Shown here in pieces: positions 3,597-28,577 of a DNA stretch of 64,000 nucleotides. The position numbers and the translations under genes are program-made. The notes under the pieces were generated by a model. It did no database searches and had not been told where the DNA came from. It saw nothing but the letters and a program-made list of their open reading frames with translations. Every line of letters starts with the position of its first letter. Positions within the stretch are counted from its first letter, which is position 1. Source of the stretch: Cellulosilyticum sp. (GTDB lineage: Bacteria > Bacillota > Clostridia > Lachnospirales > Cellulosilyticaceae); contig SVDC01000010.1 of NCBI GenBank assembly GCA_015058045.1, positions 1 to 64,000 on the forward strand. The letters are read 5' to 3'.

Positions 3597-3691
3597 TATT
3601 ACTCCTCCTTTCTATTCATTACCCTTATTATGCGTTGTGTCCTAATTAATTATGGTGCAAAATTTTAACAAATGCGGTTAATCATGACATC

Positions 3692-3731
3692 AAAAAAGAG
3701 GCTCTACAAGTTAAACTTGTAAAGCCCCTTT
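3692..3731 (-). terminator. Terminator of the DEAD-box helicase gene
   Basis: A long stem (GGGGCTTTACAAG paired with CTTGTAGAGCCTC) is followed on the minus strand by six T, just past the helicase stop codon. Confidence 0.85.
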
Positions 3732-3739
3732 TATATACT

Positions 3740-7660: not shown

Positions 7661-7742
7661 TAGTCCTATATTCTATAAAATGTACTCTATTTTAGTTTGC
7701 AATTTATGGAAAAAACTATTGGGTACTTTCATAAAAACAAAA

Positions 7743-7769
7743 AAGAGGTTGCAAATATTGCAACCTCTT
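7743..7769 (-). terminator. Terminator of tRNA-Leu
   Basis: A perfect 12-bp stem (AAGAGGTTGCAA and its complement) with a 3-nt loop is followed by a T-rich run on the minus strand, ten bases past the tRNA 3' end. Confidence 0.85.
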
Positions 7770-7778
7770 CGTCGGTTA

Positions 7779-7969: not shown

Positions 7970-10543
7970 TTAATCTTCTTCTTTGATATCGTCATTGTTC
8001 TTCTCTATGTTTTCTACTAACTCTTGCTCTTCCATAAAACAATTCTTTGTTAATGACTGATTTTCTTCTCCTTGCAGTACCTGACTCTTTTCTTCCCTAA
8101 ATAATATGTATTTCTTCTCAAAATGTTCTTCTAATACCCCTTCCATTTTTTCCAAAGACTGTTCCACTTCTTCGGGAAATATGATATAGCTTGGCATTAA
8201 TTTCCGAACAACTTCCATTGATGCTTCCGTGGATACATTGTGTGTCTTAAAGGTTTCCTGAATGTTAGTAGGCTTGTCTTTTTGACTCGTATAAAGAACC
8301 ATCCCACCTCCTATACCTACGACACCTACTAGGCCTAGAGCAGTTACTAGTTTGCCATGGGCTACAAGCCATTTGGTAAAGCTAGGCTTTAAAGCCTCTA
8401 AAATTTTATTGCATAATGCCTTTGTTTTGGCTTGTCCCCCCAATTTGGTCTCAATTAAATTACGATTAATCTTTCCCTCCCTCTTCTTAAGACTAACAAA
8501 GAAATGAATAACTTGCTCATCAAACCGACTTTTATCAACATACATCTCCTGCCCTTTGATCCAAATAATAAATTCTAATGCCACTTCCATCTGAATAGCT
8601 CTTAAATAATGAAGCACTCTCTTCATATTTAAAACAGGCTTATTCGTTTCAGGATGCATTTCTAAAAAGGCGTAAACGAGCATATAAAAATCACTTTTTC
8701 GTATGCTTTTTTTATAAAATACTTTAATCAGTTCTTGTACTTTATTAGAAACCCTAATTTTGTTTGGACTCATACAGCTTATATCCGTTTTCAGTTTTTG
8801 ATAATTTTGAATCACTTCATAGTTTTCTAGTGGATAGCTTCGATTAAATTTCAATTTGCACAAAGCAGCTTCACTTTTAATCTCGCTAAGCTGAATATGC
8901 TCTAAGTAGTAGTACTCTCCTTGCTCTACTAGATTAGTATAGATGTTTTGTTGACGCCCAGCTCCCCAACTCTGTAATTGTTCTAAAAATCTATTTAAAT
9001 CTTCTACCTTTCTTAGAGCACTGCTAAATTTTTCATAAACCACCTGAGTATAGTATTGGTCTTTCCACAAAATAAAGCCTACTTCTTCAAATCGTTCCAT
9101 CTGCTCCATCAGTTCCTCTAATCTTTGAACATCTTTGAAACTTTCTTGGATTAAATAATAGATAACCTGTTTACGTAGTTCTTCGTTGTTATACATTGCT
9201 TCAAATAAACTTTTATATACCTGCTCATACTGATGAACTTCATCTAGCACCTTATAAATGTAAGCATACTCTTTATTTCTACTACTAATCGTTAGTAGGT
9301 ACAATAAAATCTGGATACAGTGCTCTTCCTGCTCTCTATTTCTACAATAATTTAGCTTAAATTGAAGTAATGCTCTAAGCTCATCCTGCTGAATCAATTG
9401 ATTACGCCCTATTTCTTCTTGTAATAAGCTAATGATATATTCCATGACCTCAAAAAGTTCTTTTCGTATCTCATCTATTTGCTGAATTTGCATATCATTT
9501 AAAAGCTGAGTCATTAGACCATTTCGTATTTTAGGATTAGATAAGTCATAGGCTTTATGTGCCCTTAAACACATACTCATTTCAAATAGAACAATGACCC
9601 TGTTATAAAATGCTATGGTACGCTGACTTTTATCTTTCAGAGTAGCAGACAAGCTTTGTATCCAATGGTTAATTTTCTCCCATGCCATTTTATTTTTACT
9701 ATAGTATATAGCACCTTTAATATAAGGTTCTTCTTCCACATTCCCTTCCATCTCAGGGTACTTCTTATGTACAAAATCAAAAATGAGTTCTTTTCCTGTC
9801 TTAGTATCATAACGCAGGGTATTTTTATCTAAAAAAGTAATTTGAATCCCCTTTTTAGCCTCTACTTTATTGGCATAAGTACAGATACCTAAGCCTTCTG
9901 TAACTTGCCAAGGCAAAACAGTATAAAGATGATATAATAATGCCTTTGCCATCTCTCCTAATTCTTCAATTGCCACATCTAATACAATGAAAATCTTCTT
10001 TTTAGAAATAGCAGCAATTAATGTGGCATAAATCAGTTTACAAAACACTTCGTTGGTTATACCTAATTTTCCAAAAAGACGTTCTCGCTCTATGAAATAG
10101 GGATTATTCCCATCATAAGGAACCCCTGCTAGAGTAGGTAGCTCTCGCCCTTCTCCGCTATTAAAACCGGTTTGAAACCCTGTAATCCCAAAAAGTTTTT
10201 CGGGCTCTTTCATAAAACGATGTTTCTCATATTCAGAGAGAATCAAGTTATGCATAAAGAAGGTGGAACGCATGCCTGTAAAATCTTGCGCCTTATAAAC
10301 AGCTTGTCCTACAATAAGTTCGCCAGACTCCCCTGGCATAATGATCATATTAGGTGGATATTTAGCTTCATTTTGCTCCCCGACTTGCTGAAGCTCACTG
10401 GGAATATCATAGCTACATAAAGGATGAAGCACCTTTTTGATATAGTCTAGTTTCAGCTGAGATGACTTGGCAACAGTATCATAGCCATCTGTTTGATTAA
10501 ATACCCCACCCCGTTCTCTTGTGTAGTATTGTTGCTCAATCAT
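7970..10543 (-). CDS. GAP1-like GTPase-associated protein with C-terminal membrane anchor
   Basis: The protein has 857 aa. The N-terminal 150 residues (YYTRERGGVF, the NMIIMPGESGELIVGQ strand pair, RSTFFMHNLIL) resemble what Pfam calls the GTPase-associated protein 1 N-terminal domain, by memory of the family only. A long alpha-helical middle follows, then one transmembrane helix (about 730-752, glycine-rich) and an acidic tail of about 105 residues ending in DDIKEED. It is the last gene of the operon, and its start lies 1 bp from the stop of the P-loop GTPase. The tight pairing suggests it is the GTPase's partner or regulator at the membrane. No catalytic motif is visible. Confidence 0.65.
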   Translation of the reverse strand: MIEQQYYTRERGGVFNQTDGYDTVAKSSQLKLDYIKKVLHPLCSYDIPSELQQVGEQNEAKYPPNMIIMPGESGELIVGQAVYKAQDFTGMRSTFFMHNLILSEYEKHRFMKEPEKLFGITGFQTGFNSGEGRELPTLAGVPYDGNNPYFIERERLFGKLGITNEVFCKLIYATLIAAISKKKIFIVLDVAIEELGEMAKALLYHLYTVLPWQVTEGLGICTYANKVEAKKGIQITFLDKNTLRYDTKTGKELIFDFVHKKYPEMEGNVEEEPYIKGAIYYSKNKMAWEKINHWIQSLSATLKDKSQRTIAFYNRVIVLFEMSMCLRAHKAYDLSNPKIRNGLMTQLLNDMQIQQIDEIRKELFEVMEYIISLLQEEIGRNQLIQQDELRALLQFKLNYCRNREQEEHCIQILLYLLTISSRNKEYAYIYKVLDEVHQYEQVYKSLFEAMYNNEELRKQVIYYLIQESFKDVQRLEELMEQMERFEEVGFILWKDQYYTQVVYEKFSSALRKVEDLNRFLEQLQSWGAGRQQNIYTNLVEQGEYYYLEHIQLSEIKSEAALCKLKFNRSYPLENYEVIQNYQKLKTDISCMSPNKIRVSNKVQELIKVFYKKSIRKSDFYMLVYAFLEMHPETNKPVLNMKRVLHYLRAIQMEVALEFIIWIKGQEMYVDKSRFDEQVIHFFVSLKKREGKINRNLIETKLGGQAKTKALCNKILEALKPSFTKWLVAHGKLVTALGLVGVVGIGGGMVLYTSQKDKPTNIQETFKTHNVSTEASMEVVRKLMPSYIIFPEEVEQSLEKMEGVLEEHFEKKYILFREEKSQVLQGEENQSLTKNCFMEEQELVENIEKNNDDIKEED

Positions 10544-10544
10544 C

Positions 10545-11813
10545 CTATTTCACCTTCTCACTTTGAATGTAGCCTAGTTTATAAAGTAACCATAAGAAAG
10601 GTTCATCTACACGCATAGGTTGAATCACCCCTTCTAACCTTCCTTGTACTGGATTTTGCCCTAGAGAAGAAACTGCAAAATAACCTACATTATTAAAATG
10701 AACTTCTATGGCATCTAAGAAAGCTAAATCCACTTGCTCCATGAAATGATAGATTTCTCCGCTAATATTTTCATATTCATTCATATCAAAATAACCTTTA
10801 TGCTCATAGTTTCTAAAGACATTACTATTAGGTCTTAAGTAGGTTGCATCCTCTCTTGCTAATTGTTCTAACATATCACTCTTGGTAACCACCACCGCTG
10901 TTGGGGTAGAAGTTCTACCATCCTCACGACTTCCAATAAAATTTTCCCCTAAAGTAACTACTACATCCCTAGACTCTTGGTATTTAGATGTAACGTCTCC
11001 TTCTACTGCCCCTTGGCTTAAAAGGATTTTGCTACGGATGCTTGAAAGCTGAAGTGGGTCCACTAAGAATAAAATTCCCTCTGCATTTTTTATATGATTG
11101 GCATACAGATCCAAGTAATCCTCCTCTACCATCCCTTCACCTGCCACATCAAAAAACACTAAGCTAAGAGGTGGCTTACTGGTATCTTTAAATTTAAACT
11201 GATAAATAAAAGGCTCTTGTTTTCGCTCTTTTTGAGTTGACTCAATTAAAACATTTTGAGAAAAAAGCGGGTCTATGTACTGCGCACGAAAACGTCTGCT
11301 CGTATCACTACTAATAGGCATACAAGCTGCATCAAAATTATGAGCTGTAACTGTTTCTAAGGTATGAATTAAAGAGGCCATATAGACAGACTTCCCAACC
11401 TGTGATGCACCAATAATAGCAATAATATTACTTGGTGCACGACCTGCTGAATAAGGTAAGTCGTTATGACAAAATGGACACAGTCTCTTTTTAGTTTCCA
11501 CGTTGTATTTATCTCTTATGCTAATAAGCACCTCATCCACATAGTTTTTATTTTCTTCTGGAAAAAGTTTAGGATAAATGATTGCCTCCATTTCCTCGCT
11601 GCCTTCTAAGCCAAACTTCTCTAGATATTCATTAAGCTTTACATCCTCTTGAAGGCAATACTCCTCATCCTCTTCCTTGAAATGTGCTGCCCTAAAAACA
11701 ACAGAATCTGGACTAAATTTATTAAAACAATGTGGGCATACAATTGGAAATTTCTTAATAACAGGTGTGTCTTCTTTTCTAATGCCTGCTAGTAAATTTT
11801 TAATAAATGACAT
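10545..11813 (-). CDS. Zinc-ribbon P-loop GTPase, double-GTPase (DO-GTPase2-like)
   Basis: This 422-aa protein has a split zinc ribbon near the N-terminus (CPHC at 26-29, CPFC at 112-115). A GTPase domain follows: P-loop GASQVGKS (135-142), DxxG-type DVAG (222-225) and base-recognition TKSD (310-313, in place of NKxD). This combination matches the TRAFAC-class GTPases found beside GAP1 proteins in predicted bacterial conflict systems. It has no transmembrane segment, so it is cytoplasmic and probably recruited to the membrane by its partners. The sequence supports nucleotide binding; the process it drives is unknown. Confidence 0.75.
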   Translation of the reverse strand: MSFIKNLLAGIRKEDTPVIKKFPIVCPHCFNKFSPDSVVFRAAHFKEEDEEYCLQEDVKLNEYLEKFGLEGSEEMEAIIYPKLFPEENKNYVDEVLISIRDKYNVETKKRLCPFCHNDLPYSAGRAPSNIIAIIGASQVGKSVYMASLIHTLETVTAHNFDAACMPISSDTSRRFRAQYIDPLFSQNVLIESTQKERKQEPFIYQFKFKDTSKPPLSLVFFDVAGEGMVEEDYLDLYANHIKNAEGILFLVDPLQLSSIRSKILLSQGAVEGDVTSKYQESRDVVVTLGENFIGSREDGRTSTPTAVVVTKSDMLEQLAREDATYLRPNSNVFRNYEHKGYFDMNEYENISGEIYHFMEQVDLAFLDAIEVHFNNVGYFAVSSLGQNPVQGRLEGVIQPMRVDEPFLWLLYKLGYIQSEKVK

Positions 11814-11830
11814 GTTTGTGACTCCTCCCT

Positions 11831-12463
11831 TTAACTCTTTATAATTCGATAAGCTTCTTTATACGGTACTGCATCTGTAAGATAGATTCTAATATACTCA
11901 TCTTTATCGACTTCTATTTCTGGTAAGGATTGCTCTCCTGCCTCAAAATCTACAATAAATTCAAAGCACATTCCATCTTTTAGGCCAACTGGAATACTCC
12001 CCTTCTTTTTAACATAGTTTAAATACTGCCTAGGTACAGGCACTTCACAAAACACCTGCATTTGTATGAGTTTACGAGAACTCCACAATTTCTTTTTTTC
12101 TTTAATTTCATAACGAATTTCTATTTGGTGACCAATAACCTCTATTTCATTAAGATGCTCTAAATCGTTTAGCACATAGCTTTCTGCCCCTTCTTGTATA
12201 TAGGGACATAAGATATACTTACTCATGGCACTACCTAAATCTGGATCACTCCATCCTCCAAAGCGAGCATACTCATCTCTTGTATATTTTCTATAAGGTT
12301 TTTCCCACTGTATAGGCTGCTCCTCTAATACACTTTGTTTATAAATATAGAGATTTTCTAAGGTATTAGGCCATTTAAAAGTTAGCTTAACCTGCCCCTT
12401 CTCCACCTCTGCTTTAAGCTCTGTGATTTTAATGTCTCCATCCTGTGCCCATCTTACTTCCAT
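11831..12463 (-). CDS. Beta-rich protein of unknown function in the GTPase/tubulin operon
   Basis: This 210-aa protein has no signal peptide or membrane helix. The sequence alternates short hydrophobic and charged runs (for example KGQVKLTFKWP and QIEIRYEIKEKKK), which suggests one or two beta-sandwich domains. I do not recognise a family. It sits 17 bp upstream of the GTPase gene and 45 bp downstream of the polytopic VWA gene, so it is part of the same transcript. A role as an adaptor between the membrane VWA protein and the GTPase is a guess from position. Confidence 0.6.
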   Translation of the reverse strand: MEVRWAQDGDIKITELKAEVEKGQVKLTFKWPNTLENLYIYKQSVLEEQPIQWEKPYRKYTRDEYARFGGWSDPDLGSAMSKYILCPYIQEGAESYVLNDLEHLNEIEVIGHQIEIRYEIKEKKKLWSSRKLIQMQVFCEVPVPRQYLNYVKKKGSIPVGLKDGMCFEFIVDFEAGEQSLPEIEVDKDEYIRIYLTDAVPYKEAYRIIKS

Positions 12464-12508
12464 GTAAATTGCCTCCCTAGCCTCATTGTTTCAATCTATT
12501 TTACTCTT

Positions 12509-13711
12509 TTATGCAGCTCTGGTCCCATGATAGCTTTCTTTAAAAGTAATACACCAAGTAAAACTCATGAGCCCAACACCTATAAAGAACCAATAAACAA
12601 GTCTTACTATTGGTGATGATAACCCATTAGTAAACAGATTTTCTGCCAAAAGACCACTTATACCCCCACTGATAAGCGCTCCTATCAGCATACCTTTAAC
12701 GAGATACTTATTATCAAACATAATACCTAACCCCAATGCCATTAGAAGTGCTATGCCTATTAAGAAAACAACACGTAACACTTTATGTAATGAAGACTCT
12801 ATATAAGCACCTGTACGTGGGGTAATAATGGTTCCTTTCTGCTCATCATATTGAATCATGCTAAATACCTCATTTAGCATAGTCGTATCGGAAGTACTGT
12901 AGTACACACCATCTGTAAGTTGTGCAATCTCTTGCAGATAAGCTTCTGCTGAAGGATCTGTATACATCATGCCAATAGTATAAACAGGAATATCATGTGC
13001 AACATAGTCCTGAACCAGTTTAGGTATGTTATAAGCTGAGTCATCCGTTGGTGCGCCATCTGAAATCAAAATCAAACTTGCACCTCTTCCTGTATTTTCA
13101 ATAAGCTGATAGGATTCTTCCATCACCTTTGAAATTCCTGTTTGACCATCATTTTGAATGGCTAATGCACTAATCTTTGTTTTAAAAGCTTCTTTTTCCT
13201 CTTTAGTTGTAACCTCTGTAAAATCAAGTGCTAGAGTAGGCTCTTCATTAAAAGTCATCATTGCTACACGTTTAGTCCCTTTTAAGTGGTCAATAAAACT
13301 ACTTATTGCTCTAAAGCGTTCTCCATTTGGGTCTGTAGTATCCATACTACTAGATCGGTCTACTGCAATGACAATATCTTGAATGGTTTTGGGTTCATTA
13401 ATTTTAAGCCCATAGACTACTTGAAATAATCCTGCTATAATGCCCACCAACACTAATGTAGATGGAATCCATAATTTTAAAGAGGTTTTAAAGTATTGTT
13501 CTTTCCATCTATATCCAATAAGCTGAGGTGATACCTTCTGCGAAGCTACTATCATAATACCTATCATCATAGCCCCTACTCCAAAATAGATACCAACCTT
13601 TAGATAATCTGCTAATCCTAAGTGCAAAATAAGTTCTCCTAAAAGAAAAGCTATTCCCGCACCTATGATACAAAAGAGTACAGCTAACCCACTAAAACGT
13701 TTTGCTCCCAT
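12509..13711 (-). CDS. Polytopic membrane protein with VWA domain
   Basis: This 400-aa protein has three N-terminal transmembrane helices (about 8-28, 37-56, 80-100). A von Willebrand factor A domain follows (about 112-285) with an intact MIDAS start, DRSSSM (118-123), and then three or four more helices at the C-terminus. By the positive-inside rule the VWA domain should face outside, though this is an inference. The intact MIDAS suggests divalent-metal-dependent ligand binding. It is the second VWA protein of the operon. The 136-bp gap upstream holds no clear terminator, only a 12-bp direct repeat. Confidence 0.85.
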   Translation of the reverse strand: MGAKRFSGLAVLFCIIGAGIAFLLGELILHLGLADYLKVGIYFGVGAMMIGIMIVASQKVSPQLIGYRWKEQYFKTSLKLWIPSTLVLVGIIAGLFQVVYGLKINEPKTIQDIVIAVDRSSSMDTTDPNGERFRAISSFIDHLKGTKRVAMMTFNEEPTLALDFTEVTTKEEKEAFKTKISALAIQNDGQTGISKVMEESYQLIENTGRGASLILISDGAPTDDSAYNIPKLVQDYVAHDIPVYTIGMMYTDPSAEAYLQEIAQLTDGVYYSTSDTTMLNEVFSMIQYDEQKGTIITPRTGAYIESSLHKVLRVVFLIGIALLMALGLGIMFDNKYLVKGMLIGALISGGISGLLAENLFTNGLSSPIVRLVYWFFIGVGLMSFTWCITFKESYHGTRAA

Positions 13712-13847
13712 TTGATTGCTCCTTTCAACTCTTTTCTCTCTTAAACTTTCTATGGCTATCTTCTTTGTAATCCCTATATTAATCAGTCACTTTCTTATCT
13801 TACACATACTAATGAGCTATCTTCTTTAGAATATACATTCCAATAAG

Positions 13848-16169
13848 TTAGTTTTCACTATGAAAAACGTAGCCTTTTTCCTTATAGGCATCATAATAAC
13901 GCTTTGCAGATTTGGTATAAACCAAGTCCTCTAGTCTAAAGCCTCCCATAATTTGCAATTTCTCTATAACATTATGACGCTGATCATGAAGGGTACCAAT
14001 CTTATAACTACGGCTACTTTGATCACGTTTATAGGCATACTCAATAAACTCACTTTGCCTATTGCCAAGGAAATATTTTTCTATATATCGATGAGATGTC
14101 AAAGTAGTATCCAAATATACACAAGGCTTTGAGTTTTCCTCCAAGCTTTCATAAAGCATTTCATAGAGTTCACTTTTTGACACAATTTCTGTTTCTTCAT
14201 AATCAACCATCATATTGGCTCTTGCCAGAAGCTCTTCTTCAAAAGAAAGATTAAAGTACTTTTCTTCTCCTAAAATTTCTTGGCAAGCAATTTTTCCTAA
14301 TCTACTAATGATTGTCTCTTCACTCTCAGTCAAAAGCGAACTTCCCATGTATTTTTCTTCCAATAAAAAATGGCTACCTTTTGTCTGTTTCAAATTTTCT
14401 ATCTGTTTTCCTATGAGCCTTTCATAATACTCCTTTACATTTTGAACCAGATACTCTTCTTCATAACGATTAGCTTCTTCTATCATTTCTAAAAGTAAGC
14501 TTTCTACTTGCTCTAATTTTTTTAGCTGCTCTTGTAAGCTTTTTTCAAAGCTTACAAGAGCTCCTTGCAGACCTTCTAGTACTATCAGTTTTAAAGATTC
14601 TAACTCATAGTTATATCTTGCTATATAGACCTCTTCAATTAAGTAGTCTTTTACCTCTTGCAGATACTTCTTATCTAATAAGCCAAAATTACCTCCTACA
14701 CACTGACCAACAATTCTATTTTCTTTTTCTTTCACGTCTGCTTCAAACCGTTTCATTTGATATTGATATTTCTCTTTTTGTGCTTCTAAGGTACTATATG
14801 CCTCTGATTTTAGAAGCTGACTTATAGCAAAAGGGCCATATTCGGGGTGATGGACTAAGTTCCTTATCCAGTTTTCTCTAAGCTTTGATTCCTGTAAGGC
14901 ATCCGTTATCCTTCTTTTTGCCACCTCTATAAAATTAGCTTTAAAAAAAGCTTTAGCACTCTCTCCATATAAACTCACTTCTACATCCAAAAAGGTATCC
15001 TGCTTAATAGCCTTAAAACTTCCTCCCCTAGAAATCAGACTTCTCATTTCACCTAAGCCTTCTTTACTAGGCATACAACGTTTAACTAAAGCTTCTATTT
15101 TACTTTCGCTTAAACCTACTTGATCTATTAAAGCATTTCCCCTATCTTGCCCTATCTCATAAGTCAGCTCTTTTTTATAACACTTAAATAGAGCATATAG
15201 CACCGTTAAGTAAATCCCTTGTCCCGGTTTCTTCACCTTTGCAAGTCTAGCTGTACAATAACGCTGCTGTGCATCTTCCTGAATATTCGTTATAAAAGTA
15301 TTGTAATTATACTGCTCTCTTGCTTCTTCCAGCTCCATAGCTTCTTGTTGCCTATTTTTTAGAAGGTTAACAGTCACAATAGTTTCATAATGTGTTTTTC
15401 TTGCCTCATTAATCCGCTGCCCATTTTCCTTTTGATCTGATAAAAGATACACTAGTTGAAAAAGCCTACCATTATGTACTGTCATCAGCTTCATTTCATC
15501 CTCTAATAATTCTGTGGCTCTTTCATAATGATAGTTACTACTTTCATAGTCATTTAAGTCTTGAAACAAACTATAACTTAAGGCTTTTTGAAATGGCGTT
15601 GCATCTTCTTCTGTTGCATCCAGAAGTACAAATAAATCCATAAAAACTTGCTTGAAACTTTGCTCCAATCTATTTTTAAGAAGGATGCTTACATCTGATA
15701 AGATACCATTTAATGGATCACTCGCTTTGGTAATCACACTAATGTGCATTTGCTCCCAGTAGCTAAAGACCTTATTTTTTTCTGAAATACGCTGACTGAG
15801 TGCTGTTATCTTCTGATTAAGGACTTTTAAAAATGCCTCTTGCTCTAAGAGCTGACTTAGCTCTCCTCTATCTTTTAAAGTTCCTTTTTCATTTAAAGCA
15901 GTTTCATCTATAGGAATCCAAATTTCTTCTGGATTTATCTCTTCACTTCTTCTAGTACTTATCCCTAGATAAACAACGCCCTCACTATTATTCATACTTT
16001 CTGCTACTGCTTTTTTTAGCGTCTTAATATCTTCCTGTACCTGCTCACCTAAAAGTACAAAAACCAAAGGAGCCTTCATTCGTAGATTATGATGTCTGAG
16101 CACTTCTTCATCATAATGCCTCGCGAAGTCATCTGCATTTTGCACCAGTGTCTGTTTAATTGCTGTCAT
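13848..16169 (-). CDS. Large helical protein of unknown function, tubulin-operon partner
   Basis: From the start chosen here it has 773 aa. An upstream in-frame ATG at 16211 has no ribosome-binding site, whereas the ATG at 16169 has GGGAGG ten bases before it. The first about 70 residues contain two beta strands (APLVFVLLG and GVVYLGIST) that suggest a small alpha/beta start. The rest is largely alpha-helical with long Lys/Glu/Gln-rich stretches likely to form coiled coils (about 460-600). No membrane segment or known motif is seen. It directly follows the tubulin-like gene, so a filament-binding or cargo role is possible but unproven. Confidence 0.65.
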   Translation of the reverse strand: MTAIKQTLVQNADDFARHYDEEVLRHHNLRMKAPLVFVLLGEQVQEDIKTLKKAVAESMNNSEGVVYLGISTRRSEEINPEEIWIPIDETALNEKGTLKDRGELSQLLEQEAFLKVLNQKITALSQRISEKNKVFSYWEQMHISVITKASDPLNGILSDVSILLKNRLEQSFKQVFMDLFVLLDATEEDATPFQKALSYSLFQDLNDYESSNYHYERATELLEDEMKLMTVHNGRLFQLVYLLSDQKENGQRINEARKTHYETIVTVNLLKNRQQEAMELEEAREQYNYNTFITNIQEDAQQRYCTARLAKVKKPGQGIYLTVLYALFKCYKKELTYEIGQDRGNALIDQVGLSESKIEALVKRCMPSKEGLGEMRSLISRGGSFKAIKQDTFLDVEVSLYGESAKAFFKANFIEVAKRRITDALQESKLRENWIRNLVHHPEYGPFAISQLLKSEAYSTLEAQKEKYQYQMKRFEADVKEKENRIVGQCVGGNFGLLDKKYLQEVKDYLIEEVYIARYNYELESLKLIVLEGLQGALVSFEKSLQEQLKKLEQVESLLLEMIEEANRYEEEYLVQNVKEYYERLIGKQIENLKQTKGSHFLLEEKYMGSSLLTESEETIISRLGKIACQEILGEEKYFNLSFEEELLARANMMVDYEETEIVSKSELYEMLYESLEENSKPCVYLDTTLTSHRYIEKYFLGNRQSEFIEYAYKRDQSSRSYKIGTLHDQRHNVIEKLQIMGGFRLEDLVYTKSAKRYYDAYKEKGYVFHSEN

Positions 16170-16213
16170 TATGCTCTTTCCTCCCTTATAGGCTTTTTCT
16201 TCTAAAAACATAC

Positions 16214-16267
16214 TTAGGAAGCCTAGAATATAAGGCTTTTTTGCCTTATCTCTATGCTTCCTTCTAA
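16214..16267 (-). promoter_or_regulatory. Stable intercistronic hairpin in the tubulin operon
   Basis: The gap after the tubulin-like stop codon holds a long imperfect hairpin: outer TTAG/CTAA and GAAGC/GCTTC pairs, and an inner ATAAGGC/GCCTTAT stem around a six-base loop. No T-run follows on the minus strand, so it is not a normal terminator. It may protect or process the mRNA and set different levels of the two products. Confidence 0.5.
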
Positions 16268-16274
16268 GTTTTCA

Positions 16275-19200
16275 TTAACTTAATTTCTTCTTAAGTGCCT
16301 TGGTATAACCTAAAATATCTCTATAGAATCCATAGATTTGCTTACCATCTACAATTTCATGAACTTCATCTTCTATTTCCTCACGTCTTTCCCCATAGAC
16401 TGCTAAAATGTCATCCAATCTTTCCATAAGTACCGTAATGTCTTCGCTTTGAGTTAATGCTTTCACTCTCTTTTCTGACTTTCTAATCATAACGGACTTT
16501 AACTTCCCTTCTAAGGCTGTAAATCGTTTATAGAGTTCATATTCTGCATATTTATTAATATCCATCACATTGAGAATCGGGTCATAAAGCTCCTCTTCTT
16601 CATCCTTGTCATAAAGATAAAGGGCGCCTTTTTTATAAAGGGTCTTAGTATATAGCGATTTAACGAAATTCTCGATATTTTTCTCTTCCTCTTTAGCCCC
16701 CTCTACAACCTCTTTAAGCTGAACAATATATGCTTCCATAGCTTCGTATTTTTTAATTTCTTCTTTTAAAATTTGTTTTTGTAATGGATAACGCATAATT
16801 CCTTCAAATGCTAACTCTTCTGAGTAACTATTCATAATGGACTGAATCTCTTTTTCACCCTTTAAGCCATTTGCTACTTGTGCTTCAAAATCATTTAGAG
16901 CATTTTGAATGCTTGTAAAATTAGGTTTAGATAAATCAATGGCATACTGTGCAATCTGAGCCGCTAAATCAAAATCCACTACACGTTTTAGGATATATTG
17001 ATTATTAAGACCTGAGTCTTCTCGCTTTTCAATGATATGGTAGCCTAGCCCTCTCTCAAAAAGTTCCTTTCCCTCTTTCATCAGTTCTTCAATACGTGGA
17101 TTAGAATAGGTATCTCCCCATGCCCCTTGTGGAATAGGTGACGGCAAGCTTACCCAACTCTCCTTGTCTGACATAACCAAATGACGCCCCACACCCTCTC
17201 TGGTATAAATGGTTTCTTCATATAATTTTTCATATGCTTTGAGTGGACCATAAGCATAAAGTGGTACGCCATTACGAGTCGTTACCCAGAAAATACGGTT
17301 AGTTAGCTTACTTTGTCTAAGCGAAAACTTAGCGGCTGAATTTGGATATTTCTCTTGGAAATTTTTAAGCCCTTTATAAATGCTTGGTGTGTTAGCCGGT
17401 ACTGAAACCATGGCATAATAAGGGAAGTTAAACTCTGAACTATTAGTAAGATAAAATAATGGCACTGCATCTCTTGATAACTTGGTTGCAATCTGTTTTT
17501 CCACTAACTCTACTAAAGACTCTTCTTCTCCATACTTCATCACCAAAAACTCTTCCATAGTCTTTGAAATCAAATCTGAGAACTTATCTGTAATAAAATC
17601 TGAAATAGAAGAAATAATATCAATTTCTGATTCATTAATCCACTGGTCTGCTTCTTTTAAAAGCATGCTGGTAAACTCAGAAACCAAAATACTTGCATCA
17701 TATTCATCAATAACCTTATCAATATGTTTTGCCACATCTTTGACACTGACTACATTCCAGTGATAGGTCAGATTTCCCTTTTCATCCACAGACTCATTTG
17801 CCTGAATCAAAATTTGCCCATCTTTTTTAAAGATGCCATTTAAAGTATTTAAAATCTCCGTAAAGACAGCATAAAATTGATTATTTCTTTCGATTAAAAG
17901 CATTCTTAAATCTTCATAAGCTGCTATCATTTTTGTAAACTTTTCTATATCTGCACGTAAGAAATACTCAGAAACTTTACTGTCTATATAGTCATTTTTC
18001 TTTTTCTCCTTAGAGATAAAGGCCGATCTTGCATCCTGCATTTTTTCTATAGCATTTTCTATTTGATAATCTATTTGCTGAGGTAATTTTGCCAGTTGTT
18101 CTTTTAAGGTCACAATATTTGCCTCAATGGTTTTCACTAGGCAGAAACCTTCTTTGTTCACAAGTACATTTGAAGCATATACTGGTCCAAACTCTGGACT
18201 TACAAAGAGCCTTTTTATCTCATCGAAAACAGATTCTTTGAGTTCATTAGGCAGCTGCTGAGCTGCATGATTAAAGGCTTCTCTGGCCTTTAATAAGAAA
18301 TTATTTTCTAGTTCCACATCTATATTTACAGCTTGCGTCTTAATCACATTATGATAAGAAAAAGCTTCTCTAGACTCAAATCCTGGAAGGGCTTCTGGTA
18401 CATTTTGCTCAAAACGTCTACATACACTATCCATATCTAACCCGAGTCTTCTTGCCATATCCCCTACTTCTTCTTCCGTTGGCACAGCGCCAAACATCCC
18501 TTGAATACGTTCAAATACTCTAAATGCCATATAAGTAGTCATCTCTTCAATAGGTAAAATAGAGGCAGAAGCACCAATAATATTGTATTTATAATTTGCT
18601 GGAAGTGTGGCTTCTCGCATTTGCTTAATATTGGTTTCAATATTGCTAATATAATCATGGATGGCAAACTCTTCACCTGACTGTTTATCTTCACTTGCCA
18701 TAAAGTTCGTGATATTTTCTGCTGTGACATTCATGCAGTAATCATAAGCATTATGAATGGTTTTACCCTCTGTATCGGTAGCTGAAATCAAGTGGCAAAG
18801 ATCAAAAGGTGGCATGCCTGTATCCACACTTAAGCGTGTGCCATACTCTTGCTTAAAATGCTCTCTACGTTCTTCAATATTCATCCAATAATCTAATTCT
18901 TTTAATGCAGCGTATCCATTTTTCTTAATGTATTCCTGAGTATGTATACTAAGCGATGGGTTTGCCAAATTGACATCTGGTGTAAATAAGTAACCCATAA
19001 TATCGGAACGGTCAATACCACTACCACCTGCTTCAAGGTCTAATATTGCCCTGGTAATGTAAGCAATATCCAAGAAACAGCCACTACCTGTTCCTCCTGA
19101 AAGACCTGTTAAGATAAAGATATAAATCTTTCTATCCGTTCCTTTTTGAAGTTCTTTAACCTTTTTTTGAATGGCATCTACTACCTGATTAATCTTCGTA

Positions 19201-19661
19201 AAAAGTAATAGTCTCCCCCCTTGTCTAACACCTGATGCCCCATTAATACCATCTGCAATATGAAGTTCCGGTGAAAGCCAAGAAGCAATACTTGGATGAA
19301 GTCTTGTGCGATTTTGTAGCATACTTCCAATCCCTGCTTCTGAAAGCAGGACAAGTTCATTTAATGGGTCCAGTCCTATCCCTTTATATTTCTTATTTTT
19401 ATCTTGCTCATTGGTTTCAAAAGCTAAGAAATCTATATTGGCTGGTTTATCTAAACGCTTCTTAGTCATAGGATCCATTGGTAAATTAAAACGTCTGTTA
19501 ATTTGATATTTTAAACGAAGAAGTGCATCAATTCCTGTTCCACCAAGTCCAATAACAAGCATAGGGTTATCTATGGTATCTACCCTAATCTTCTTACTAA
19601 CAATACCTCCACCCTGCTGAATATCTAACTGTTGAATATGATCTCTAATAATTGGTTTCAT
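16275..19661 (-). CDS. Tubulin/FtsZ-like GTPase (Tubulin_2 family)
   Basis: This 1128-aa protein has an N-terminal tubulin-type nucleotide-binding fold. T1-like GLGGTG lies at 38-43, and the tubulin signature GLSGGTGSG at 186-194 is the phosphate-binding T4 loop. Tubulins and FtsZ are about 380-450 aa, so this protein carries about 600 extra residues. These include helical, coiled-coil-like stretches (about 480-640 and 950-1128). It has no membrane segment and should be cytoplasmic. It may polymerise with GTP, as tubulin relatives do, but key assembly residues such as the T7 catalytic acid cannot be placed by eye. It lies 9 bp after the VWA lipid-side gene in the same operon. Confidence 0.85.
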   Translation of the reverse strand: MKPIIRDHIQQLDIQQGGGIVSKKIRVDTIDNPMLVIGLGGTGIDALLRLKYQINRRFNLPMDPMTKKRLDKPANIDFLAFETNEQDKNKKYKGIGLDPLNELVLLSEAGIGSMLQNRTRLHPSIASWLSPELHIADGINGASGVRQGGRLLLFTKINQVVDAIQKKVKELQKGTDRKIYIFILTGLSGGTGSGCFLDIAYITRAILDLEAGGSGIDRSDIMGYLFTPDVNLANPSLSIHTQEYIKKNGYAALKELDYWMNIEERREHFKQEYGTRLSVDTGMPPFDLCHLISATDTEGKTIHNAYDYCMNVTAENITNFMASEDKQSGEEFAIHDYISNIETNIKQMREATLPANYKYNIIGASASILPIEEMTTYMAFRVFERIQGMFGAVPTEEEVGDMARRLGLDMDSVCRRFEQNVPEALPGFESREAFSYHNVIKTQAVNIDVELENNFLLKAREAFNHAAQQLPNELKESVFDEIKRLFVSPEFGPVYASNVLVNKEGFCLVKTIEANIVTLKEQLAKLPQQIDYQIENAIEKMQDARSAFISKEKKKNDYIDSKVSEYFLRADIEKFTKMIAAYEDLRMLLIERNNQFYAVFTEILNTLNGIFKKDGQILIQANESVDEKGNLTYHWNVVSVKDVAKHIDKVIDEYDASILVSEFTSMLLKEADQWINESEIDIISSISDFITDKFSDLISKTMEEFLVMKYGEEESLVELVEKQIATKLSRDAVPLFYLTNSSEFNFPYYAMVSVPANTPSIYKGLKNFQEKYPNSAAKFSLRQSKLTNRIFWVTTRNGVPLYAYGPLKAYEKLYEETIYTREGVGRHLVMSDKESWVSLPSPIPQGAWGDTYSNPRIEELMKEGKELFERGLGYHIIEKREDSGLNNQYILKRVVDFDLAAQIAQYAIDLSKPNFTSIQNALNDFEAQVANGLKGEKEIQSIMNSYSEELAFEGIMRYPLQKQILKEEIKKYEAMEAYIVQLKEVVEGAKEEEKNIENFVKSLYTKTLYKKGALYLYDKDEEEELYDPILNVMDINKYAEYELYKRFTALEGKLKSVMIRKSEKRVKALTQSEDITVLMERLDDILAVYGERREEIEDEVHEIVDGKQIYGFYRDILGYTKALKKKLS

Positions 19662-19670
19662 ATTTTCCTC

Positions 19671-21461
19671 CTATAATAAGTACTCTATTTGTATGGTTTT
19701 TCCAGTATCAGCTAGATTAATACTAAATCGGTCACCTTTTCTCACTTCTATACCTGTATCTGCTTTAACGATGCGTCCCGCTTTTTCTATGGCATAATTA
19801 GACCCATTAATCAGCATCACTTTATCTCCTGTCATAGCCTTTAATATAATCTGCTCCGATGCCGCTAGTTCTGGTGCAAACTGCAATAAGGCATGTAAAC
19901 TTACCTTTCCCTTAAATACATTAAGCTTCTTATATTGTGGAGGGGTAAGTTTTCCTGTTGTATTATCTTTAATCTCCACTACCATTTGCCCCACTAAAGG
20001 CCTTGTTGACTCCTTAACTACTTTTAAAACAACAATGATAATTGCTAGCACACCCAAAATACCTAAAGCAATGCCTATCCAAACTAATGGTAACTTGCCT
20101 TCCTCAGAATCCCCTGTTTTATCCAAAGGCGAAACTGGTGCTACACTAGAATTGGTTTGTGTCCCCCCTTTACCTACTGTAATCACAATAGGCGTACTTT
20201 GCCTTTTATAACTTGTATCCTCCACTAAAACTGAAAGCTCATAGCTACCTTCTTCTTGCAAACTGCAACTGCCTTTAAACTGCTGAGCATCCATTTGCAT
20301 ATCTAACGTTTCTTCTTTGCCAGAATCTACATTCTTAAAGATTAAACTTGCTTTACTACTTTGATAAAGCCCCTTATCATCAATAGGATTGCCTTGAAAA
20401 CTTAAGTAGGCATTGATATCTACTGAATCTCCCTTGGCAAACTGTGTATTTTGAAGTGGTTCTACTGTTACTTCAATATCATAGTTGTATATTAAATCAA
20501 TATTGATTTGGTCACCTGATGCACCTTTTACATAAAGCTTCCAGTCCCCTTCTACTGGTTTTGCAAGCTTCAAAAGGTAATAAGATTGAGACGTATGTAG
20601 TGTCACATCACTAGATGGAATGGTCTTACTGTTACCACTTGGATCTTCTAATCTAAATTCTATATTGCCACTTGCTGTAGCTGAAATATTAGCTTCTAAA
20701 ACATTATTATTTGGAATTTGAATCGTTACTTCTTCAAAATCACCTGTCCCTTGTAAGGTACCTAGCGTTTGAACCTTTAAATTGGAATGGGCTGCAAAAA
20801 TTTGAGTCAAAATATCGGGTAATTCATTTGGGTCTTTTGTTGAAAAGGCTAATGCCCCTGTTTCGTCTGATATGTTTTTAAGATAGGTTTCATTAAGTTT
20901 TCCATTGTCATTTAAGCCAATGGTATAAATAGGGTAGCCTACACTTTTAGCTTCATCTAACATCTTAGCTAAATCTGTATCTATTATTTGATTATTTCTT
21001 CCTGCCACACCACCTACTGCATTATTACCGTCAGTAAAGAGGATGATAAGTGGCTTATTACCTAGAGAGGTATCTCTATTATTTTGCATTTCAATGGCTT
21101 TACCAAGACCAGCTGTAATATCCGTATACTCTAAATCTCTTGTAAGACCATCTACAAAGCCTTTAATATGCTCTTTATCCTGTTGATTTTCTACTGTTGT
21201 CATAGGATAAATAGCATTTACCTGCGCACCATAGGTGACCAGTCCTACCTGATTACCTGTCGCCCCTAGCATATCTACAAATAATTTAACGCCTTCTAAG
21301 CCTAGTTTATTGGGATCTGTTTCCTTCATGGAGCCACTAGCATCCATTACTAAAACAGCATCTAACTTGCTATTTCCAGTAGTTGCAAACAAACTTATCT
21401 GCATACAAAATATCATAAAGATTAGTATCAACATCCTAACACTCAATTGTTTTATTTTCAT
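19671..21461 (-). CDS. Exported VWA-domain protein with one transmembrane helix and cytoplasmic tail
   Basis: From the chosen start it has 596 aa. The ATG at 21461 has GGAGG eight bases upstream; an ATG at 21476 overlaps the previous stop codon but has no site of its own. Layout: a signal peptide (about 1-27), a VWA domain with MIDAS DASGSM (40-45), beta-sandwich domains (about 230-440), one transmembrane helix (about 459-483) and a C-terminal cytoplasmic domain of about 113 residues, beta-rich and possibly FHA-like. The protein could bind a ligand outside and signal through the tail to the tubulin-like GTPase encoded next. Confidence 0.85.
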   Translation of the reverse strand: MKIKQLSVRMLILIFMIFCMQISLFATTGNSKLDAVLVMDASGSMKETDPNKLGLEGVKLFVDMLGATGNQVGLVTYGAQVNAIYPMTTVENQQDKEHIKGFVDGLTRDLEYTDITAGLGKAIEMQNNRDTSLGNKPLIILFTDGNNAVGGVAGRNNQIIDTDLAKMLDEAKSVGYPIYTIGLNDNGKLNETYLKNISDETGALAFSTKDPNELPDILTQIFAAHSNLKVQTLGTLQGTGDFEEVTIQIPNNNVLEANISATASGNIEFRLEDPSGNSKTIPSSDVTLHTSQSYYLLKLAKPVEGDWKLYVKGASGDQINIDLIYNYDIEVTVEPLQNTQFAKGDSVDINAYLSFQGNPIDDKGLYQSSKASLIFKNVDSGKEETLDMQMDAQQFKGSCSLQEEGSYELSVLVEDTSYKRQSTPIVITVGKGGTQTNSSVAPVSPLDKTGDSEEGKLPLVWIGIALGILGVLAIIIVVLKVVKESTRPLVGQMVVEIKDNTTGKLTPPQYKKLNVFKGKVSLHALLQFAPELAASEQIILKAMTGDKVMLINGSNYAIEKAGRIVKADTGIEVRKGDRFSINLADTGKTIQIEYLL

Positions 21462-21475
21462 TATGACTTCCTCCA

Positions 21476-22423
21476 TTATGTATCCATTTTAGATGACTTT
21501 AAATATCTTTCAAATCGCTCATCATTTCCTACAAGCATTTCTACTTCTTCCATAAGCTGAATCCTTAGATTTTCATCCTTAATCCCTGATTGCAATTTAC
21601 ATAGCCTTAATAACCGCTCCTTTGAAAAATAACTTAAATACCCCTGCATCTCCCCTGCATATTTGTTTAATAAGAACTTCGATTTTAAAGCTCCTTCTAA
21701 AATACTTGCCATGATTTTTTTACCCTTATGCTTCATTAATACTTGCTCTTTATATTGCACAATATAACTCAAGGTTGCATCATCGATCAGCGACTTTTTT
21801 AGCTTAGACACTTCATAAATATAATCAATCAAATAAGTATTACATTCTTCCTGTAATAAAGTTTTTAACTCTAATGGCATATCACTTCTTAGCTTAAAAT
21901 GCCTTAAACAAATAAGCTTATAAATTCTAACTTCCTCCGTATCCATAAGCTTTCCTAAATAACGAAAACGATCATAGGCATCTACAGGATTACCTGCTTC
22001 CACATCTTGAATCGCCATACTCATTTGCTGTCCTAAATCCACTTTAATCTGATCAATATGCTCTTCCATAAATCGTTCTACTTCCTTTAAGCATAACTCT
22101 TTTTGATATTTCTTATGAATGAGTAGATTAAGTCCCAAACAAGCTAATGTAAAGCACGTTGCCATAAAAACCAGCTTCCAGTCTTTTGCTAAAACTAAAA
22201 AAACAGCATAAAAACCTATGATTACTAGCTCTCTTATTAAAAGCTGTCTCCATATTTTCTTTGCTGTCATCTCTTCTAATGTGATTTCTGCTATTTGATT
22301 ACATTTTATACAAGGTTTATTTCCTAAATTAAAACTACCACAACGCTTACAACAGGTTAGATAATCCATCTCATAAGGAAATACGGGTAACTCTTTAAAA
22401 TGAACAATTAATTGCTCTGTCAT
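21476..22423 (-). CDS. Zinc-ribbon membrane protein of unknown function
   Basis: The protein has 315 aa. A four-cysteine zinc ribbon lies near the N-terminus (Cys24/25, Cys28, Cys38, Cys41). Two adjacent transmembrane helices (about 62-80 and 84-102) form a hairpin, and a long soluble helical C-terminal domain (about 105-315) should be cytoplasmic. I recognise no family. Its stop codon overlaps an upstream ATG of the surface VWA gene by one base (TAATG), so the two are translationally close. It also follows the 47-aa membrane ORF by 4 bp. Confidence 0.75.
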   Translation of the reverse strand: MTEQLIVHFKELPVFPYEMDYLTCCKRCGSFNLGNKPCIKCNQIAEITLEEMTAKKIWRQLLIRELVIIGFYAVFLVLAKDWKLVFMATCFTLACLGLNLLIHKKYQKELCLKEVERFMEEHIDQIKVDLGQQMSMAIQDVEAGNPVDAYDRFRYLGKLMDTEEVRIYKLICLRHFKLRSDMPLELKTLLQEECNTYLIDYIYEVSKLKKSLIDDATLSYIVQYKEQVLMKHKGKKIMASILEGALKSKFLLNKYAGEMQGYLSYFSKERLLRLCKLQSGIKDENLRIQLMEEVEMLVGNDERFERYLKSSKMDT

Positions 22424-22427
22424 TTCT

Positions 22428-22571
22428 CTACTCCTTTAACAGTTCTAGAAGTTTCTCATTGATTGCTTGTTTTCCTTTGTTATGCCTTTTACAAATGATA
22501 CATACAGCTAAATACTGTACTACAACCAAACTCATTGCTCCAACTATCACGAACATCCATATCTTAGGCAT
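22428..22571 (-). CDS. Small single-helix membrane protein, first gene of the tubulin/GTPase operon
   Basis: This is a 47-aa ORF with start ATG at 22571 and stop TAG at 22428, preceded by AGAGGTG four bases before the ATG. It begins MPKIWMFVIVGAMS, and one hydrophobic helix spans about residues 5-27. A basic segment (KRHNKGK) follows and it ends LLELLKE. Its end carries the GGAG that serves the next gene, 4 bp away. The tight coupling and good start make it real. It may be a membrane subunit or regulator of the complex. No family is recognised. Confidence 0.75.
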   Translation of the reverse strand: MPKIWMFVIVGAMSLVVVQYLAVCIICKRHNKGKQAINEKLLELLKE

Positions 22572-22848: not shown

Positions 22849-22886
22849 AAAAAAAGACATAGAATCCTCGATCCTATGTCTTTTTA
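22849..22886 (-). terminator. Terminator of the nitrilase-family gene
   Basis: A stem (AAAGACATAGGAT paired with its near-complement) with T-runs on both sides lies 63 bp past the amidohydrolase stop codon. Confidence 0.8.
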
Positions 22887-24521: not shown

Positions 24522-25580
24522 TTAAATATATACTGGCATTGGATCTTTAATAGCTGAATTTTCCATACTATGCACCTTAACATCATCAAAAAAATTAAGT
24601 CTATAAATAAGAATCCTTACTTCTTCTCCTATTTTAAATTCTTGTTCATCCAAGTTTCTGTATGCTGTAAGTAAGATTTCTCCTACTCTAACTTTTAATT
24701 CAGTATTACTTCCTCTAAAAAATATTTGTTCTACAATTCCTTTCTCAGAACCATAAATCGAACCAACTTCTTCAGCCGTCTTCCCTACTTTTATAAATTC
24801 TGGTCTTATAATAGCTTTGCTATTTTTAACTTTATCAAAGCCTTTTAATCTTCCATAATCTTCAATCACACAAGGTTCTCCTAAAAATTGAGCCACATAA
24901 GGCGTCTGAGGATTTATATATATATCAGCTGGTGTACCGATTTGTTCAACTTTCCCTTGATACGTAATAATAATTTCATCGGCAACCTCAATAGCCTCAT
25001 TTTGATCATGGGTTACAAATATACTTGTTATACCAAGCTTATCAATCATTTCCCTAAGCCACCCTCTAAGCTCTTTTCTAACTTTCGCATCAATAGCAGC
25101 AAATGGTTCATCTAAAAGCAAAAGTTGTGGATTAGGAGCTAATGCTCTTGCAAACGCTACTCTTTGTTTCTGCCCTCCTGAAAGCTGGTGTGGGTATCTT
25201 TTTTCAAAACCTTCAAGTCCAATCAATTTTATAAGTTCTATTACTCTTTCATTGATCTCACCTTTATTTACCTTATTAATTTTAAGCCCAAAAGCAATAT
25301 TTTCAAAAACAGTCATGTGCCTAAAAAGTGCATAGTTTTGAAAAACGAAACCTATTCCTCTCTTTCCTGCTTCAATATTATTAACCCGCTTACCATCTAT
25401 TATAATATCTCCACTATCAGGTGTTTCAAGTCCAGCAATCATTCTTAGAATAGTTGTTTTACCACTTCCACTTGCACCTAAAAGTCCAATTAGTTTTCCC
25501 TTTTCAATACCAAAACTAACATTATCTATTGCTTTAAATGCTTTAAAACTTTTATTGATATTTTTTAATTCAACATACAT
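24522..25580 (-). CDS. cysA: Sulfate/thiosulfate ABC transporter ATP-binding protein CysA
   Basis: The protein has 352 aa. Its ATPase domain has Walker A GASGSGKTT (35-43), the LSGGQKQR signature, Walker B LLLLDEP and the H-loop THDQNEA. A C-terminal TOBE-type regulatory domain follows. It powers sulfate import through CysT and CysW, whose genes precede it on the same strand; cysW ends immediately before the cysA start. Neighbouring APS reductase and sulfite reductase genes confirm sulfate as the likely substrate. Confidence 0.93.
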   Translation of the reverse strand: MYVELKNINKSFKAFKAIDNVSFGIEKGKLIGLLGASGSGKTTILRMIAGLETPDSGDIIIDGKRVNNIEAGKRGIGFVFQNYALFRHMTVFENIAFGLKINKVNKGEINERVIELIKLIGLEGFEKRYPHQLSGGQKQRVAFARALAPNPQLLLLDEPFAAIDAKVRKELRGWLREMIDKLGITSIFVTHDQNEAIEVADEIIITYQGKVEQIGTPADIYINPQTPYVAQFLGEPCVIEDYGRLKGFDKVKNSKAIIRPEFIKVGKTAEEVGSIYGSEKGIVEQIFFRGSNTELKVRVGEILLTAYRNLDEQEFKIGEEVRILIYRLNFFDDVKVHSMENSAIKDPMPVYI

Positions 25581-26396
25581 TTATTCCGACTCCCTCCTGC
25601 TCCTGTATTCAATTATATTTCTAAGGATAAGAATTACTATTGCCATTATCACTAATATGGAGGCTACACCAAAGGCCTCTGTTGCTTTAAATTCATTGTA
25701 TAAAATTTCAACATGTAAAGGCAGCGTATTTGTCTTTCCTCTTATACTTCCTGATACAACTGAAACTGCGCCAAATTCTCCCATTGCCCTTGCTGCACAT
25801 AATATAATGCCATAGATTAAAGCCCACTTGATTTTAGGTAAGGTCACCTTAAAAAATATGGTAAATCCGTTAGCTCCCATCATTGCAGCCGCTTCTTCTT
25901 CTTCATTACCTTGCGAATTCATAAGTGGGATAATCTCTCTTGCTACAAAAGGAAATGTTACAAATAATGTAGCAAGTACTATACCTGGCGTAGCAAATAC
26001 AATTTTTATATGATGTGCTTGAAGAAATGGATGTAAAAAACCAATTCTACCAAATGTCATTATAAATATCAGACCTGCTATAATGGGAGAGATTGCAAAA
26101 GGTAAGTCAATAATTGTTGTAAGTGCATTTTTAAATCTGAAATTAAATTTTGTAATTGCCCAAGCTGCAAATAGGCCAAATATTGTATTTAATACTGTAG
26201 CAATAATTGTAGCCGTTAATGTAAGACCTAGTGCTTTTTGCGTATAATAATCGGTAATGGTTGATCTATAAGTAACCCACCCCTCTTCAAGGCATTTAAT
26301 CAATACAACAGCGAGTGGAAGAACAAGCATAACAAATACAAATGCCAAACTAACAAACAATAATAAACACTTTACAAAATGACTTTTCTTATTCAT
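25581..26396 (-). CDS. cysW: Sulfate ABC transporter permease CysW
   Basis: This 271-aa inner-membrane permease has about six transmembrane helices. The cytoplasmic EAA loop (EEEAAAMMGANGFTIF, then the PKIKWALIYG segment) couples to the ATPase. It pairs with CysT, encoded 11 bp upstream. The EFGAVSVVSG segment is typical of CysW/CysT permeases. Confidence 0.93.
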   Translation of the reverse strand: MNKKSHFVKCLLLFVSLAFVFVMLVLPLAVVLIKCLEEGWVTYRSTITDYYTQKALGLTLTATIIATVLNTIFGLFAAWAITKFNFRFKNALTTIIDLPFAISPIIAGLIFIMTFGRIGFLHPFLQAHHIKIVFATPGIVLATLFVTFPFVAREIIPLMNSQGNEEEEAAAMMGANGFTIFFKVTLPKIKWALIYGIILCAARAMGEFGAVSVVSGSIRGKTNTLPLHVEILYNEFKATEAFGVASILVIMAIVILILRNIIEYRSRRESE

Positions 26397-26407
26397 AATT
26401 CCCCCTA

Positions 26408-27235: not shown

Positions 27236-27266
27236 TTACTTCATCACTCCCATTATCTAATTATTA

Positions 27267-28316: not shown

Positions 28317-28412
28317 TTTCTCCCCTTTCATCTCCCTAATTACTAGTTTATATGCTACCTCTCAATTCCCCTTTTTATTTCCCATAATTTTACTAGGTTT
28401 AATATGTTTTAC

Positions 28413-28441
28413 ACTATAATACTCGAGTAAATCTTTGTCAA
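28413..28441 (-). promoter_or_regulatory. Promoter of the sulfate import operon
   Basis: A perfect -35 TTGACA and a TATAGT -10 are 17 bp apart. The spacer contains the 8-bp palindrome ACTCGAGT (28421-28428), a possible repressor site. The predicted leader is about 90 nt and shows no riboswitch I recognise. Confidence 0.75.
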
Positions 28442-28521
28442 TTTGGCTTTTTTTATACTCCGTTATAGGTAAATAGTATAATTCTTACTCACCTAACCAA
28501 TCGTAAGTTATCCAATAAAAT

Positions 28522-28557
28522 AGGCCCTCTCAAACAGCTTTGAGACGGTCTTTTTTT
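28522..28557. terminator. Terminator-like hairpin after the sulfur operon
   Basis: A stem GGCCCTCTCAAA / TTTGAGACGGTC around a four-base loop. A seven-T run follows on the plus strand and a weaker T-rich stretch on the minus strand. It lies 21 bp past the siroheme dehydrogenase stop codon and separates that operon from sbp. Confidence 0.65.
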
Positions 28558-28577
28558 ATAATAAGCCTTTAGTTAGA

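Follow-up and report, generated by a model that had tools for sequence, protein, structure and literature searches.

The closest described relatives of the gene cluster studied here are known from two published accounts. Passages of Makarova and Koonin 2010 (PMC2875224) describe the FtsZl1 tubulin family together with von Willebrand factor A (vWA) and GTPase neighbours, and predict membrane remodelling as its function, while those of Kaur et al. 2020 (PMC7159879) on a firmicute GAP1-N2/DO-GTPase system include two genes for tubulins and two for vWA proteins. In the present study we analysed a stretch of 64,000 nucleotides (nt) from Cellulosilyticum sp. (contig SVDC01000010.1, positions 1-64,000; hereafter the window), in which such a set occupies positions 7970-22571 of the minus strand. 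The original prediction, made from the DNA alone, took this exact set to be undescribed, but its firmicute version is covered by the passages of Kaur et al.; since the gene set has already been predicted in print, it is a good experimental target and not a new kind of system. What we add to the two accounts is a second, apparently degenerate tubulin, a membrane micropeptide and detail on evolutionary rates. We propose, at about even odds, that the cluster encodes a membrane-anchored cytoskeletal scaffold or switch serving the cell envelope, with a probable role in the organisation of the envelope or cell surface rather than in cell division.

The central protein, of 1128 amino acids (aa), is a tubulin-like GTPase which matches Pfam Tubulin_2 with 284.9 bits and shows not only the T4 loop (GGTGSG) seen originally but also the T1 loop (GLGGTG). 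For comparison we used 80 loci from a scan of named genomes, mostly of Paenibacillus, with Brevibacillus and Saccharibacillus; being the best tubulin matches and mutually related, these Bacilli loci are not independent samples. Among their homologues of the tubulin, the T1 motif is found in 76/77 and the T4 motif, as GGTG[SG]G, in 77/77. The Tubulin_2 domain is followed by a long helical (coiled-coil) stretch, with long helices at 447-620 in the AlphaFold2 model (pLDDT, the predicted local distance difference test score, of 82), and by a helical C-terminal part. The top Foldseek matches of this model are FtsZ and CetZ (TMt about 0.5), and thus the tubulin fold on which the original prediction depended is found by Pfam, AlphaFold2 and Foldseek. 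In a separate observation, two strong Tubulin_2 genes (E 2.2e-51 and 2.0e-46) were found at a distance of about 3 kb in the Clostridia genome G265 (C2:229876-234626) and may be a pair of active tubulins.

The 773-aa protein encoded next to it (787 aa if translation starts at the upstream in-frame ATG at 16211) had been regarded as a large unknown helical subunit, perhaps a specific partner or effector. Sequence profiles and models instead indicate a second, degenerate tubulin in which the fold is kept and the usual GTP-binding loops are gone. The match to Tubulin_2 spans profile positions 177-351 and is shared by 16 of 39 homologues, and the profile of the family aligns in hhalign with that of the 1128-aa tubulin, co-linearly over 459 columns (E 1.2e-7). 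The AlphaFold2 model has a mean pLDDT of 86, and CetZ, tubulin and TubZ chains rank first when it is searched with Foldseek (best E 4.8e-4, probability 1.00); among the 50 matches listed, 49 are members of the tubulin superfamily (tubulin, CetZ, TubZ) and have a probability of 1.00; the other is a bacterial dynamin at rank 27. In the Bacilli homologues GLGGTG occurs in 0/77 and GGTG in 1/77. Because a tubulin fold is thus combined with the loss of the GTP loops in nearly all homologues, we call the protein a pseudo-tubulin. Furthermore, five loci from more distant Clostridia have, adjacent to the tubulin gene, a gene for a protein of 588-643 aa; the profile of these proteins gives a match to the 773-aa family (E 1.5e-8) and none to the active tubulin. 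That the protein is no relative of tubulin, its Pfam and Foldseek matches arising from a generic Rossmann-like core and a coiled coil, would agree with the weak primary Pfam score (31 bits) and with the low TM-scores against single PDB chains (TMt 0.32-0.42); we nevertheless consider this very improbable in view of the Foldseek list, the matches in homologues and the co-linear profile alignment, and two tubulin genes are also counted in the firmicute versions in the passages of Kaur et al. (PMC7159879).

The genes form a compact and conserved unit. Eight open reading frames (ORFs) of 210-1128 aa, lying between 7970 and 22423, and a 47-codon ORF upstream of them make nine co-oriented genes at intergenic distances of -1 to 136 nt, with a recognisable ribosome-binding site for each except the 601-aa gene, which shares 1 nt with its neighbour; the number and position of the genes had been given correctly. 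The one good promoter also claimed for them does not stand out, since promoter-like sites are not above chance (54 observed vs 56.4 +/- 6.3 in shuffled sequence). What stands out at the boundaries is a terminator-like hairpin at either end, and inside the cluster no such hairpin with a good T tail was found on the same strand. In all 76 Bacilli (Paenibacillus-group) loci of 21 kb or more the seven core genes have the same order and strand, with the zinc-ribbon gene placed upstream and divergently in 75 of them. No variable effector gene, whether nuclease, toxin or other, interrupts the seven-gene core in any of the 76, and the flanks of the cassette are poorly conserved, the best flanking family being present in 12/80 loci. 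The full set is also found in two loci of the same genus, L018 and L019, the latter with a truncated vWA gene, and the visible part of it is conserved in L020, a contig-truncated locus of the same family. The conserved co-occurrence anticipated by the original prediction is therefore observed.

Several subunits are associated with the membrane. Both vWA proteins carry the DxSxS motif of a metal ion-dependent adhesion site (MIDAS), kept in 78/78 homologues of the 601-aa protein and in 73/73 of the 400-aa one. The former is composed of an N-terminal signal or anchor, the vWA domain (39-224), a beta-sandwich region, a membrane helix (469-487) and a C-terminal tail. It had been described as exported; the second membrane helix makes a transmembrane receptor the better reading, the vWA domain being presumably extracellular and the beta-rich tail cytosolic. 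Homologues give MG2-like and galactose-binding-like beta-sandwich matches in the region beyond the vWA domain, where a YtkA domain was not matched by Pfam. The 400-aa protein is polytopic, as expected, and hydropathy places its vWA domain (112-283), which would face outside, between two groups of about three helices. The predicted further zinc-ribbon and single-helix membrane proteins were likewise recognised. In the 315-aa protein, for which Pfam gave no convincing match, four Cys are invariant in a 15-member alignment and CxxC..CxxC is present in 72/72 Bacilli homologues. The micropeptide, MPKIWMFVIVGAMSLVVVQYLAVCIICKRHNKGKQAINEKLLELLKE, consists of a membrane helix, basic residues and a conserved LLELLKE-like end, and its gene follows a good ribosome-binding site (GAGGTGA). 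L018, L019 and L020 each have a counterpart ahead of the zinc-ribbon gene. Among the Bacilli loci, a micropeptide-like ORF (hydrophobic, 30-90 aa, ending <=60 nt upstream) precedes this gene in 53/72, compared with 21/838 control genes taken from these loci; the peptide sequences can be aligned. With a product of 47-50 aa, the gene is small enough for annotation to miss.

In L018, L019 and L020 a gene of 582-588 aa, coding for a TPR-like single-pass protein, lies between the zinc-ribbon and vWA genes, which the window joins directly. Of the 80 Bacilli loci, 42 have a related gene, which adjoins the zinc-ribbon gene in 34, and the Brevibacillus copies show weak TPR matches and end in a bacterial SH3 (SH3b) domain. 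A search of the window genome with a sibling query detected no relocated copy, a weak test given that copies are about 27-32% identical and that it had no positive control. In L019 the 601-aa-type vWA gene (3255-4280) lacks the N-terminal half in which the vWA domain would lie, and the TPR-like gene before it seems to be cut short at its end, which points to either a real deletion or an artefact of the draft assembly.

The second GTPase of the cluster, of 422 aa, belongs to the DO-GTPase2 family and contains the P-loop GASQVGKS, the motif TKSD and two separated CxxC pairs forming a split zinc ribbon; the P-loop and the CxxC pairs are each found in 77/77 Bacilli homologues. Its gene is separated by 1 nt from that of the 857-aa GAP1 protein, in which the GAP1-N2 and GAP1-M domains are followed by a helical part, a membrane helix at about 732-750 and a polar tail; the eight Bacilli homologues listed have their membrane helix at a corresponding position. 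Both proteins thus correspond to what had been read from the DNA, a P-loop GTPase with a split zinc ribbon and a GAP1-like partner with a membrane helix. GAP1-N2 was rejected as a marker of the complete system because its other matches in the Clostridia sample lie in genomes without Tubulin_2. The gene of the 210-aa protein keeps its position in 76/76 Bacilli loci; searches of Pfam and PDB gave no convincing match for its product, and a fibronectin type III (FNIII) domain was not confirmed.

Conservation is much higher in the tubulin and the DO-GTPase than in the other subunits, with median pairwise identities among Bacilli of 0.80 and 0.82, respectively, against 0.37 (GAP1) to 0.59 for the others. 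The median dN/dS (Nei-Gojobori, 16 close pairs) is 0.021 for the tubulin, 0.020 for the GTPase, 0.055-0.061 for the vWA proteins, 0.086 for the pseudo-tubulin, 0.095 for the zinc-ribbon protein, 0.109 for the 210-aa protein and 0.144 for GAP1. All measured subunits are under purifying selection, with values well below 1 that are whole-gene averages and compatible with a few positively selected sites. Two near-fixed GTPases beside a fast-changing pseudo-tubulin and membrane subunits are the pattern to be expected if a conserved core is served by adaptors tuned to each lineage.

We propose that the vWA domains face outward, where Mg-dependent contacts of their MIDAS would let them sense a cue from the wall or surface, that the DO-GTPase/GAP1 pair would gate the signal on the cytosolic face, and that the tubulin and the pseudo-tubulin may assemble into a cortical filament or patch organising the envelope, such assembly being coupled to the extracellular vWA domains. 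In this mechanism the pseudo-tubulin could serve as cap, nucleator or fixed partner of the tubulin. The fixed composition and the poorly conserved flanks support the view of a single unit, and the membrane helices, the MIDAS motifs and the SH3b wall-type domain of Brevibacillus support, at the level of sequence, a connection with the envelope. Of the original interpretation, one membrane-linked module of vWA proteins, tubulin-like GTPase and GTPase/GAP1 pair that occur together is retained, while the helical effector and the novelty of the set are given up. Several points weigh against our proposal. Polymerisation, contact between tubulin and pseudo-tubulin, outward topology and any ligand all enter it as inferences; the T7 catalytic loop was not resolved in the 1128-aa tubulin, nor was T6-H7 identified according to the passages of Makarova and Koonin (PMC2875224); literature searches among open-licence papers found no experimental study of the system; and its patchy presence (Tubulin_2 in 7/196 Clostridia genomes) fits an accessory or a conflict system equally. 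A more specific version, which we regard as speculative and rather unlikely, is an obligate heteropolymer of the active tubulin and its inactive, GTP-loop-less partner, which GAP1/DO-GTPase, the zinc-ribbon hairpin protein and the micropeptide would connect to outward-facing vWA receptors, giving a bacterial transmembrane linkage from receptor to tubulin cytoskeleton.

According to the passages of Kaur et al. (PMC7159879), the set would be a conflict (anti-phage or anti-toxin) system, where invasion is sensed on the vWA/GAP1 side and the DO-GTPase makes the tubulin assemble as a multimeric effector at the membrane. The cluster closely matches the firmicute GAP1-N2 theme published there, its cassette lies at differing chromosomal sites, and Tubulin_2 is distributed patchily, being found in 13/96 relatives sampled, in 77/150 Paenibacillaceae genomes (76 above the cut-off, mostly with one strong match and at most a weak second) and in the few Clostridia mentioned; for this patchiness and variable location a conflict role is possible. 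We do not favour it, however, and give it a distinctly smaller chance than the envelope role, because the invariant composition, the lack of a variable effector and the purifying selection, with dN/dS medians far from the diversification expected of arms-race sensors, lean away from such a system. PADLOC gives one weak match, in a generic P-loop region (E 0.022), and nothing else, and when effector or defence functions were sought in PADLOC, NCBIfam, PHROGs and Pfam, the unknown subunits gave only generic or weak matches. Moreover, the tubulin has no match in a phage collection of 50,697 records and only 3 remote matches in a collection of 72,556 plasmids.

A cytoskeleton associated with division or sporulation in endospore-forming Firmicutes seems improbable, more so than a conflict role. 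In favour of this explanation, Paenibacillus and Brevibacillus are spore formers and the window genome has Spo0A, but Spo0A is nearly universal in the Clostridia sample (162/196 genomes), so that its co-occurrence with the far rarer Tubulin_2 is uninformative, and genome G049 has Tubulin_2 without Spo0A. The FtsZl1 family is also reported from archaea, Cyanobacteria, Planctomycetes and others without endospores in the passages of Makarova and Koonin (PMC2875224), and a canonical FtsZ gene elsewhere in the window genome indicates that division is already served. If the assembly proposed here does form, bacterial surface receptors would be tied to a tubulin-type polymer, and the paired dead tubulin would offer a natural test of heteropolymer origin. 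Since the family occurs in about half of the sampled Paenibacillaceae, a PDB sequence search detected a solved relative for neither the tubulin nor the pseudo-tubulin, and no functional study was found, work on function and structure would be informative either way.

Table 1. Features of the gene cluster, with positions in the window unless a related locus is named.
Feature	Position	Strand	Evidence
47-aa single-helix membrane micropeptide, ninth gene	22428..22571	-	Ribosome-binding site and ORF; conserved counterparts
315-aa zinc-ribbon membrane protein	21476..22423	-	CxxC..CxxC; two-helix hairpin about 61-102, rest helical
601-aa transmembrane vWA protein	19671..21476	-	Pfam VWA 2e-17
1128-aa tubulin-like GTPase (Tubulin_2 / FtsZl1)	16275..19661	-	Pfam Tubulin_2 1.4e-84
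773-aa putative pseudo-tubulin	13848..16169	-	Tubulin_2 2e-7, hhalign, AlphaFold2, Foldseek
400-aa polytopic vWA protein	12509..13711	-	Pfam VWA 5.4e-17; hydropathy; MIDAS
210-aa soluble protein, possibly beta-rich	11831..12463	-	Conserved position; no convincing Pfam or PDB match
422-aa DO-GTPase2, split N-terminal zinc ribbon	10545..11813	-	Pfam DO-GTPase2 39.4 bits (cut-off 27)
857-aa GAP1 protein	7970..10543	-	Pfam GAP1-N2 2.3e-38 (131.8 bits), GAP1-M 1.1e-9 (38.9 bits); cut-offs 24
Terminator-like hairpin after preceding nitrilase-like gene, upstream end of unit	22851..22885	-	16-pair stem, T tail
Terminator-like hairpin behind tRNA-Leu, downstream end of unit	7742..7770	-	13-pair stem, T run
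TPR-like single-pass gene, not in window cluster	L018 5122-6888; L019 1507-3255; L020 3573-5327		

Elsewhere in the window, and to judge from sequence alone, an apparent sulfate uptake and assimilation cluster (24522-39084, minus strand) comprises genes for an ABC transporter, ATP sulfurylase-like subunits and a sulfite reductase-like protein, and includes JAMM-like and MoeB/ThiF-like genes, probably of the sulfur-carrier type (30219-31537). At 655-2181 the sequence suggests a gene for a ThyX-like thymidylate synthase on the minus strand and, pointing away from it on the plus strand, a dihydrofolate reductase-like gene.

In comparison with known systems, both the tubulin and the pseudo-tubulin are predicted to share the fold of their N-terminal domain with FtsZ, TubZ, CetZ and eukaryotic alpha/beta tubulin, whereas Tubulin_2 is devoid of the FtsZ_C/Tubulin_C domains and is extended by a large coiled-coil/helical part. 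Alpha-tubulin binds GTP without exchanging it; in the present pair, unlike alpha/beta tubulin, one partner is devoid of the usual GTP loops. With the FtsZl1 system of Makarova and Koonin the cluster has in common the tubulin family itself, vWA and divergent GTPase partners, membrane association and the coiled coil, although a paired GTP-loop-less paralogue does not appear in the passages concerned. With respect to the GAP1-N2 firmicute theme of Kaur et al., the zinc-ribbon hairpin membrane protein and the micropeptide of 47-50 aa are absent from the passages on that theme, the second tubulin is here found to be without GTP loops, and Pfam detected neither YtkA nor FNIII domains, the 210-aa protein sitting where their GAP1-N2 systems have FNIII proteins. 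The window cluster also differs from its own relatives by the missing TPR-like/SH3b gene. As far as those passages go, it nevertheless resembles the theme in its GAP1-N2 and GAP1-M domains, in the zinc-ribbon DO-GTPase adjoining GAP1, in two coiled-coil tubulin genes, in two vWA genes, one of them polytopic, and in the polar tail of GAP1.

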